Assembly (NCBI RefSeq): GCF_004116495.1
Contig: NZ_PDKC01000028.1
Span: 1-34,187, forward strand
Origin: Arcobacter sp. CECT 8985
GTDB taxonomy: Bacteria > Campylobacterota > Campylobacteria > Campylobacterales > Arcobacteraceae
Direction of reading: 5' to 3'
Length of the DNA stretch: 34,187 nt
Positions 31,604 through 34,187 of this stretch are shown here, piece after piece (position 1 is the first letter of the stretch; each line of letters begins with the position of its first letter). Made by a program: the position numbers and the translations under genes. The notes under the pieces were generated by a model that was not told the DNA's origin, did not search any database, and saw only the letters and a program-made list of their open reading frames with translations.

Positions 31604-32725
31604 ATGGATTGTACATATTTTGGTAAATGTGGTAGTTGTACTTTATTTGATAAGTCATATGAAGAACAGCTTTTATTTAAACTAAATAGAGAAAAACAAA
31701 GATTTAGTGATTTAACAAATTTAGAATTTGATGTCATTAAAAGTCAAGAAAGTAATTTTAGAAATCGTGCAGAGTTTAGAATTTGGAAAAGTTTTAATGA
31801 ACATGAGCAACCAACAATTTCTTATGCTATGAATGACTTTGATAAGAATGCATTAATAATTAACAAATGTCAAATTGTAAGTAGCCATATACAAAATGTT
31901 ATGCCAAAACTTTTGGAAAAAATTCAAAAAAGAGATGTGTTAAAAACAAAACTTTTTGCATGTGAATTTTTAAACTCTAAAAAACAAGATATGCTAGTAA
32001 CACTAATTTATCATAGAAAACTTGAAGAAGATTGGATAGAAGAAGCAAAAAAGTTAGAAAAAGAATTAAATATCAAAATAATTGGAAGAAGTAGAAAACA
32101 AAAAATTGTTTTGAGTCAAGACTTTATAGAAGAAGAACTAGTAATAGAGAATAAAACTTTCTATTTTGAATATAAAGAAGGTGGTTTTACTCAACCAAAC
32201 ACAAACGTTAATATCAAAATGATAGAATGGGTTTTAACAAAACTTGAAAAAAGCAAAACTGATCTTTGCGAATTATACTGTGGAGGTGGTAACTTTACTA
32301 TTCCTTTATCTACAAAGTTCAATAAAGTTTTGGCAACTGAAATTTCAAAAACATCAATTAGATCTGCTTTAAAAAATTGTGAATTAAACTCAATTTCAAG
32401 TATTGATTTTATAAGAATGAGTAGTGAAGAGTTTGTAGAAGCATTAGAAGAAAAAAGGGAATTTAGAAGATTAAAAAATGTTGATCTAAAATCATATAAT
32501 TTCTCTACAATTTTTGTAGATCCTCCAAGAGCAGGACTTGATGAAACAACAACAAACCTTATTAAAAATTTTGAAAAAATAATTTATATATCGTGTAATC
32601 CAGAAACTCTTCATAGAGATTTAATAGAACTTACAAAAACACACAAAATTGAAAACTTTGCATTATTTGATCAATTCTCTTATACAAAGCATATAGAAAG
32701 TGGTGTAATCTTAAAGAAACTTTAA
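31604..32725 (+). CDS. trmA: tRNA (uracil-5-)-methyltransferase TrmA with four FeS-type cysteines
   Basis: TrmA uses S-adenosylmethionine to make ribothymidine at position 54 of tRNA. The 373-residue protein follows TrmA closely (FRNRAEFRIWK at 52-62, FTQPNTNVN, ELYCGGGNF, VDPPRAGLD at 305-313, catalytic C331 in YISCNPETLHRDL, ending in DQFSYTKHIESGVIL). Unlike the E. coli enzyme as I recall it, it has CTYFGKCGSC at 3-12 and C89 in INKCQIV, matching the spacing of the [4Fe-4S] ligands of the relative RlmD. The ribosome binding site is AAGGT. The assignment to TrmA is firm; cluster binding is inferred. Confidence 0.93.
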   Translation: MDCTYFGKCGSCTLFDKSYEEQLLFKLNREKQRFSDLTNLEFDVIKSQESNFRNRAEFRIWKSFNEHEQPTISYAMNDFDKNALIINKCQIVSSHIQNVMPKLLEKIQKRDVLKTKLFACEFLNSKKQDMLVTLIYHRKLEEDWIEEAKKLEKELNIKIIGRSRKQKIVLSQDFIEEELVIENKTFYFEYKEGGFTQPNTNVNIKMIEWVLTKLEKSKTDLCELYCGGGNFTIPLSTKFNKVLATEISKTSIRSALKNCELNSISSIDFIRMSSEEFVEALEEKREFRRLKNVDLKSYNFSTIFVDPPRAGLDETTTNLIKNFEKIIYISCNPETLHRDLIELTKTHKIENFALFDQFSYTKHIESGVILKKL

Positions 32726-32778: not shown

Positions 32779-33639
32779 ATGAGAATTAATACAAACACTG
32801 CTTCACTTATGGCACAAGAAGCAAATACTAATACAAATAGGAAACTTACAACTTCTTTAGAGAAGTTAAGTACAGGTCTTAGAATTAATAAAGCAAGTGA
32901 TGATGCTTCAGGACTTGCAATTGCTGATAAACTAAGAACTCAAGCTAGTTCTTTAGGTCAGTCAATTTCAAATGGAAATTCTGCAATATCTCTAACACAA
33001 ATTGCTGATAAAGCAATGGCAGAACAATCTAATATTTTAGATACTATTAAAAGTAAACTTATCCAAGCATCAACTGATACTACTTCAGATCAAGGTAGGG
33101 AAGCTATTGGAAAAGATATATCTAAACTTTTATCACAACTTGATAACATAGCAAATCAAACTAACTATAATGGAACTTCTTTATTACAAGGTGCTAGTGC
33201 TGGTTCTGCAGCAATTCAATTAACATTCCAAATGGGTGAAACAGCTGCAGATACTATTAGTACAACTCCGGGCGTAAGATCAAATGTTTCTGGATTAAGT
33301 TTAACTGATTTAAAAAATGCTGCTAGTGCAGGTACATCAGCAGCCGGCTTTAATGCTTCTGGAGCAAGAGGTTTCATGGATGATGTTGATAGTGCATTGA
33401 ATACATTAAATAGCTGGAGAGCAGATTTTGGTTCTACTCAAAATCAATTAGAATCAGCAGTTAGAAATCAAATGACTCAAAAAACGAATATTAAAGCTGC
33501 TGAATCTGTAATTAGAGATGTTGATTATGCACAAGAAAGTGCAACATTTAATAAACAAAACATTATTTCACAAGCTGGTACTTATGCTATGAGTCAAGCA
33601 AATAATGTACAACAAAATATATTAAGACTACTTCAATAG
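32779..33639 (+). CDS. Flagellin (short form)
   Basis: The 286-residue protein is a flagellar filament subunit. It has the conserved N-terminal coiled region (MRINTNTASLMAQEANTN, then LSTGLRINKASDDASGLAIA) and the conserved C-terminal helix ending ANNVQQNILRLLQ. Between them only about 60 residues are non-conserved, so the surface domains D2 and D3 are missing, giving a thin, smooth filament. It lacks a signal peptide because it is exported by the flagellar type III apparatus. It starts 53 bases after trmA, with AAAAGGG before the ATG, and is followed by a strong terminator. Confidence 0.95.
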   Translation: MRINTNTASLMAQEANTNTNRKLTTSLEKLSTGLRINKASDDASGLAIADKLRTQASSLGQSISNGNSAISLTQIADKAMAEQSNILDTIKSKLIQASTDTTSDQGREAIGKDISKLLSQLDNIANQTNYNGTSLLQGASAGSAAIQLTFQMGETAADTISTTPGVRSNVSGLSLTDLKNAASAGTSAAGFNASGARGFMDDVDSALNTLNSWRADFGSTQNQLESAVRNQMTQKTNIKAAESVIRDVDYAQESATFNKQNIISQAGTYAMSQANNVQQNILRLLQ

Positions 33640-33713: not shown

Positions 33714-33739
33714 TAATTTATTACTAATTAAGCTAATTT

Positions 33740-33765
33740 TAAGAATTGGTATGTCATAATTCTTA
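33740..33765 (+). promoter_or_regulatory. Inverted repeat over the promoter of the 64-residue gene
   Basis: TAAGAATT (33740-33747) and AATTCTTA (33758-33765) are perfect inverted repeats with a 10-base spacer. The right arm overlaps a possible extended -10 box (TGTCATAAT, 33752-33760), so it could be a repressor site. Confidence 0.45.
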
Positions 33766-33791: not shown

Positions 33792-33986
33792 ATGACAAAG
33801 CAAATTTCAATACCAAACAACATTTTAAAAATCCAAAAAAAGTTATGTACTTTTGAAAAAGGGTCTAGAAACTATATCAAATATAGTAAAATATTAGAAA
33901 AACATATTAAAAAAAATAATATGAAAAGAAGAGTTAATAGCAATATAAAAACTATAGAAGCTATTCAAAATATTAGTAAAAACTAA
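33792..33986 (+). CDS. Small basic protein between two flagellin genes
   Basis: The 64-residue protein is very rich in Lys, Asn and Ile, strongly basic, with one cysteine (C19 in KKLCTFEKGS) and a mostly helical prediction. It has no signal peptide or membrane segment. AAGGA lies 7 bases before the ATG, and an inverted repeat covers its promoter. I do not recognise the family. Its place between two flagellin genes hints at a flagellar role, but A+T-rich DNA gives Lys/Asn/Ile-rich frames by chance, so it could be spurious. Confidence 0.55.
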   Translation: MTKQISIPNNILKIQKKLCTFEKGSRNYIKYSKILEKHIKKNNMKRRVNSNIKTIEAIQNISKN

Positions 33987-34000
33987 AATAAATAAAAAGA

Positions 34001-34110
34001 ATAGGTATCAATTGATACCGAAGAGTAAAACTCTATGCTTGGTAAAACAAGAAGTGTTAATAGGCTCCCAGTGTCATGGGTAAATCTTTTAAAGATAAAA
34101 AGGATTTATT
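34001..34110 (+). promoter_or_regulatory. Structured leader of the second flagellin gene
   Basis: Within 110 bases there are four stem-loops: GGTATC/GATACC (34004-34019, a 16-base perfect palindrome), AGAGT/ACTCT (34022-34034), CTTG/CAAG (34038-34051) and CCCA/TGGG (34067-34080). They are followed by two competing hairpins: ATCTTT/AAAGAT (34084-34096), which leaves the ribosome binding site AAGGA free, and AAATCTTTT (34082-34090) with AAAAGGATTT (34098-34107), nine pairs that bury it. This resembles a translational switch. It matches no riboswitch class I know. Confidence 0.55.
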
Positions 34111-34187
34111 ATGAGAATTAATACAAATGCTGCTTCATTAGTTGCACAAGAAGCTTCAACAAATACAACAAAAAACTTAAATAGCTC
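34111..34187 (+). CDS. Second flagellin gene, N-terminal fragment (runs off the right edge)
   Basis: The visible 25 codons read MRINTNAASLVAQEASTNT and continue, closely matching the N-terminus of the first flagellin (MRINTNTASLMAQEANTNT). It is therefore a paralogue arranged in tandem, about 470 bases downstream. The ribosome binding site AAGGA (34100-34104) lies within a possible sequestering stem. Nothing can be said about the rest of the protein. Confidence 0.93.
   Translation, partial: MRINTNAASLVAQEASTNTTKNLNS

Follow-up and report, generated by a model that had tools for sequence, protein, structure and literature searches.

A structured leader before the second flagellin gene

The window analysed in this study is the whole stretch of 34,187 nucleotides from Arcobacter sp. 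CECT 8985 (Malaciobacter), and two flagellin genes lie toward its end. The first (32779–33639) starts 53 bases after trmA, which ends at 32725, and has no structured leader, as an earlier note on this DNA had observed; the trmA-linked first flagellins of relatives likewise have none. A probable promoter follows at 33728–33760 on the forward strand, recognized from its sequence and from comparison of upstream regions, with a TTAAGCTAATTTTAAG direct repeat and an extended −10-like TATGTCATAAT. It stands upstream of a 64-codon ORF (33792–33986, forward strand) for a basic protein with a pI of 10.4 and a charge of about +13. Fifteen bases after this ORF begins the leader (34002–34110, forward strand), which lies between the small ORF and the second flagellin gene and, in alignment with four paralogues, runs from a conserved UAGG up to the last base ahead of the flagellin ATG (34111–34113). 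Only the 5′-end of the second flagellin gene (MRINTNAASLVAQEASTNTTKNLNS..., 34111–34187, forward strand) is present, and contig C20 ends at 34187. Since the window contig and contig C59 (G000:C59:1-185) end in the same flagellin start, the repeat of a flagellin array probably broke the assembly at 34187.

A DNA search of the same assembly found four further copies of the leader on a 3.7-kb contig of tandem flagellin genes, each directly preceding a flagellin start. The genome thus has five copies, and a flagellin gene immediately follows every one of them. On C59 (L009) and in the genomes G091 (L076), G036 (L077) and G079 (L078), flagellin genes form tandem arrays with a separate leader for each gene copy, up to 11 leaders per array (G091), and several leaders are identical between copies within these arrays.

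The earlier note had described a chain of four stem-loops in this region, and all four are found where it placed them (forward strand). P1 (GGUAUC-AAUU-GAUACC, 34004–34009/34014–34019) has six pairs and a RAUK loop. P2 (AGAGU-AAA-ACUCU, 34022–34026/34030–34034) varies in length among relatives and is joined by the linker AUG (34035–34037) to P3 (CUUG-GUAAAA-CAAG, 34038–34041/34048–34051), after which comes a conserved AA (34052–34053). In some leaders of the genome G051 (L081 3421–3519 and 4517–4602) the P3 loop has a large insert, indicating that long extensions of P3 are tolerated. P4 (CCC-AGUGUCAU-GGG, 34067–34069/34078–34080) was delineated from the sequence and from an alignment of the two platform types described below. 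Finally, the hairpin P5 (UAAAUCUUUU / AAAGGAUUUA, 34081–34090/34099–34108, forward strand, −6.2 kcal/mol) pairs the Shine-Dalgarno (SD) sequence AAGGA (34100–34104) within its stem. The fold of 33987–34115 has a free energy of −27.9 kcal/mol (z = −3.6), which was equalled in 1 of 200 shuffled sequences.

Covariation of P1–P3

The three hairpins P1–P3 covary among relatives. In an alignment of 34 sequences, 98.3% of pair cells were standard pairs, 11 of 17 pairs changed on both sides, and the covariation score was 0.336 compared with 0.126 in shuffled alignments (0/500 as high). With 106 distinct sequences the score rose to 0.419 against 0.158 after shuffling (0/500), and it fell to 0.03–0.08 when pairing partners were slid; overall, 96–98% of pairs were kept. 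All six pairs of P1 and three of four in P3 change on both sides among the 106 distinct sequences, as do all five pairs of P2 in the alignments of 34 and 106 relatives. Moreover, the top nine pairs of a mutual-information scan that assumed no structure were all in P1–P3.

Unpaired bases are conserved too. Among 100 distinct sequences the bases between stems (UA, GA, AUG and AA) were invariant or nearly so, the AUG linker being 100% conserved, and the P1 loop followed RAUK. At the flanks of P1, which are conserved together with its loop, the bases U34002/A34021 and A34003/G34020 vary little or not at all and probably lengthen the stem. This pattern of bases suggests additional pairs in two stems, U-A and A.G for P1 and U-A and G.A for P3. 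The invariant and near-invariant linker and loop bases in the 100 distinct sequences do not fit an RNA thermometer, in which occlusion would depend on the stem only.

P1–P3 form a conserved, covarying domain of the kind expected of a riboswitch receptor. The earlier note had read the leader as an array of upstream stems with an expression platform that can bury the ribosome binding site, and a conserved and covarying structured leader is indeed what relatives carry; conservation and covariation of stems across Arcobacteraceae, the check that it had proposed, turned out decisively in favour. Its second check gave no family: no Rfam covariance model matched the window at gathering score, relaxed E-values gave nothing credible there, and 20 relatives had no match.

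A leader family confined to Arcobacteraceae

DNA similarity searches first revealed the leader in several genera, and a covariance model of P1–P3 was then built. In a search of its own genome, the window leader (34002–34065) matched this model with 73 bits and an E-value of 2e-16. Among 104 Arcobacteraceae genomes, 82 had matches at E 0.1 or better and 75 had strong matches, so that the leader is present in at least 75 of 104. In samples of the order and the phylum, strong matches were confined to Arcobacteraceae. Weak matches outside the family were about as many as chance gives; those in G435, G219 and G408, together with L131–L132, had no adjoining flagellin gene and were judged to be chance.

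The regions surrounding the matches were retrieved and scanned a second time, and all matches of >35 bits with a readable start precede flagellin genes. The automated reading left out three matches that either lie at a contig end or have a variant N-terminus; L122, one of the three, does encode flagellin. Only some flagellin genes carry the leader. Its restriction to one gene type, with all readable strong matches before flagellin, is the property expected of a protein-responsive leader. We conclude that the leader is a new, family-specific structured RNA family on flagellin mRNAs.

Two platforms over the translation start

Two types of platform follow P1–P3. Type I, in Malaciobacter and relatives, consists of the CCC/GGG hairpin P4 with a GURUCA loop motif and then the SD-pairing hairpin P5, which is present in nearly all type I leaders. 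Type II leaders, those of most other genera, contain a variable P4 and then AAUGUGUCAUAA, of which CAUAA is complementary to the start region UUAUG; they too have the GURUCA motif. In type I leaders, the mean predicted unpaired probability from the SD to the AUG was 0.16 versus 0.46 with the platform shuffled, and in type II leaders that of the AUG was 0.10 versus 0.44. CAUAA occurs in most type II leaders and is missing from both leaders with a start other than UUAUG (L098 and L111). Hence, two lineage-specific and unrelated platforms are predicted to converge on occlusion of the start; because sequence variation is scarce in P5 and in the CAUAA/UUAUG pairing, this prediction comes from energy models and not from covariation.

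According to the earlier note, the platform can form either of two mutually exclusive hairpins. Both can be drawn, and the SD-burying one is stable and widespread in type I leaders as described above; however, the hairpin that leaves the SD free (34084–34096) has only −1.1 kcal/mol, is not conserved, and occurs only in the window copy and one near-identical paralogue. No switching conformer was conserved across leaders, though predicted occlusion exceeded that of shuffled sequences in both types. The invariant UAUG at the P2–P3 linker could pair with CAUA of type II platforms; because both sides are nearly invariant, this pairing is beyond the reach of covariation.

Eleven bases, TGTGTCATAAT, are found in the upstream promoter and again inside type II leaders just before the SD (L019–L036, L081–L129), which gives the impression of a duplication flanking the structured domain.

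A small basic protein co-occurs with the leader

The 64-codon ORF beside the leader is a candidate for a leader-binding protein. It belongs to a family of basic proteins of 64–75 residues (homologues L195–L214), normally one per genome, with the near-invariant core IlKIQKKLatFEkgSRNYkKY.KILaKHiKk..Mk.RvnShIkTIE. Comparisons of the ORF with Pfam, NCBIfam, PHROGs, PDB sequences and PDB folds gave nothing above chance. A two-helix model was predicted for the protein with fair confidence, at a pLDDT of 86 and a pTM of 0.60, and the PDB fold search with this model returned no informative structural relative.

The small protein was found in 81 of 104 family genomes and in 72 of the 75 that bear the leader; the leader-bearing genomes without it (G020, G025 and G077) are 74–87% complete. 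Nine genomes, mostly fragmented assemblies, have the protein and no detected leader. In the genus g20 flagellins are present and both leader and small protein are missing, while g8 comprises two genomes with both, one with a protein fragment alone and five with neither, two of which also have no flagellin match. Fisher tests of co-occurrence, uncorrected for phylogeny, gave p = 1e-11 for all genomes and p = 6e-7 for flagellin-bearing genomes. When small gene and leader were on one contig, they were on the same strand in 62/62 cases and within 60 kb in 61/62. In 12 cases the small ORF immediately precedes the leader, and in most genomes the distance is 10–60 kb; six distant small-gene loci that were read adjoined recA and mostly sugar-nucleotide genes.

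In many relatives the promoter element of 33728–33760 is located just upstream of the leader, and a conserved flagellin promoter region, TTAAGCTAAT.TTAAGAATTGGTRTGTCATAATT, is seen in the window and at L187, L188, L076 and L077. Its spaced TTAAG repeat looks like a regulator site accompanied by an extended −10. The repeat also occurs in genera that have neither leader nor small protein; because leader-free genera keep this promoter, the small protein tracks the leader and not the promoter. Co-occurrence and linkage, both uncorrected for phylogeny, are thus those expected of a leader-binding protein, and since co-inheritance is confounded by shared ancestry, they constitute a strong lead rather than a demonstration.

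DISCUSSION

We consider it probable that the leader is a cis-acting element of translational control whose start site is occluded by default and which responds to a trans-acting factor, most likely a protein. In this model, P1–P3 with their invariant linkers would be the receptor domain of Arcobacteraceae flagellin mRNAs, and the platform would occlude the translation start by default, through P5 on the SD here and through CAUAA/UUAUG pairing in most other genera. A factor acting on P1–P3 would change or hold this occlusion and thereby set flagellin output, by activation or by repression. That regulation takes place at translation, that a factor binds P1–P3 and that this factor is a protein are inferred. 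The best candidate for the protein is the small basic family of 33792–33986. Taken alone, the step to this particular protein is tentative, and we would sooner expect it to fail than to hold.

Alternatively, the leader may be an undescribed metabolite riboswitch class, in which P1–P3 would be the aptamer and the ligand might be cyclic di-GMP or some other signal for the motile-to-sessile transition. Its compact covarying domain, invariant unpaired bases and platform over the start site are all compatible with this reading, and flagellar genes of other bacteria are known targets of cyclic di-GMP riboswitches. However, a riboswitch class is usually found at several different genes or operons, whereas this leader is found only before flagellins and only in one family, and Rfam riboswitch models had no match at gathering or relaxed thresholds. 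Like the cyclic di-GMP riboswitches GEMM-I and GEMM-II of Rfam, it combines a receptor and a platform ahead of motility genes; unlike them, it has a different architecture and a single-gene association. We prefer a protein-responsive leader to a metabolite riboswitch, since one gene type only is involved and a small basic protein is co-inherited, and we regard the riboswitch as rather unlikely. Less probable again is a ligand-free leader that stabilizes a very abundant mRNA or fixes its translation rate. In other bacteria, mRNAs are shielded by stable 5′ stems, flagellin mRNAs are abundant and the leaders of a tandem array are nearly the same in sequence, but mere stability does not need the invariant linkers AUG, GA and AA.GU or the RAUK loop, nor does it explain why two different platforms converge on start occlusion.

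At the level of DNA, TGTGTCATAAT of type II leaders might be a second promoter from which many transcripts start after the structured part, as the upstream flagellin promoter has the same 11 bases as its probable −10 region. Covariation of P1–P3 as RNA stems speaks against this, as do the lack of the motif, apart from GURUCA, in type I leaders including that of the window and the way in which its CAUAA part follows the start codon context; we give this explanation very little weight. Control by CsrA, suggested by the earlier note from the GGA in the buried SD, is the least credible of all. In Campylobacter jejuni CsrA represses flaA via GGA stem-loops (PMC4894983), and 98 of 100 leaders here have an SD with ANGGA. 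However, no csrA was found over the curated cut-off in the own genome or in any of 104 family genomes, with control genomes positive, compared with 152 positive genomes in a sample of 249 from the order, family members among them. A CsrA-regulated leader would have at least two conserved GGA sites in its hairpin loops, a pattern not seen here: GGA occurs in P1 in only 32 of 100 leaders, and the single GGA of the window leader is within the SD. CsrA is excluded on two grounds, the absence of its gene from all 104 genomes and the lack of conservation of GGA sites; barring an unrecognizable CsrA, this explanation is already refuted.

Our leader resembles that of C. jejuni flaA under CsrA–FliW (PMC4894983) in being a stem-loop flagellin leader with translational control in the same phylum. 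It differs in its covarying three-hairpin architecture, its unconserved GGA loops and the absence of CsrA from Arcobacteraceae, where FliW is present in only 66 of 104 genomes. FliW is not an obligatory partner of the leader, being missing from 20 of 75 leader-bearing genomes, and its association with the leader among flagellin-bearing genomes is not significant (p = 0.14). In Malaciobacter FliW is kept in two copies (G000:C33:74825-75154 and G000:C82:26043-26354) despite the absence of its partner CsrA. In Caulobacter and Brucella, FlbT targets the 5′ UTRs of flagellin mRNAs (reviewed in PMC4347634), and our model shares with FlbT systems a dedicated protein proposed to bind the flagellin 5′ UTR. 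Unlike in those systems, flbT is absent from all 104 family genomes, which rejects FlbT as the binder, and the candidate protein does not significantly resemble FlbT or any other Pfam family. Ribosomal-protein autoregulatory leaders are similar in that one leader class serves one gene type in one lineage and is presumably read by a protein; here the target is flagellin and the binder is a candidate only.

It is known that Arcobacteraceae have lost all of the familiar flagellar regulators, and this leader RNA was previously uncatalogued. A family-wide flagellin leader and a co-inherited small protein of no known family make flagellin control testable by reporter assays and gel shifts. If the full model is true, leader and small protein took over flagellin control in Arcobacteraceae after the loss of CsrA, FliA and RpoN. 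Such an undescribed circuit of flagellin homeostasis, with a dedicated helical basic binder of 64–75 residues, is possible, and we put it forward with considerable doubt.

According to its main text, the scan of Stav et al. 2019 (PMC6429828) included Arcobacter sp. L and left several genus-confined intergenic motifs unnamed; flagellin is not mentioned in that main text. The Arcobacteraceae leader could be among these motifs, and its detection in that scan is possible. Public MAG records labelled Helicobacter pylori (L140, CAMCYD010000019.1; L141, CAMCYD010000053.1) and Sulfurospirillum (L168, JAKZMJ010000030.1) have Arcobacteraceae-type flagellin loci and look mislabelled; the contigs of L140 and L168 carry the leader and that of L141 carries the small basic ORF.
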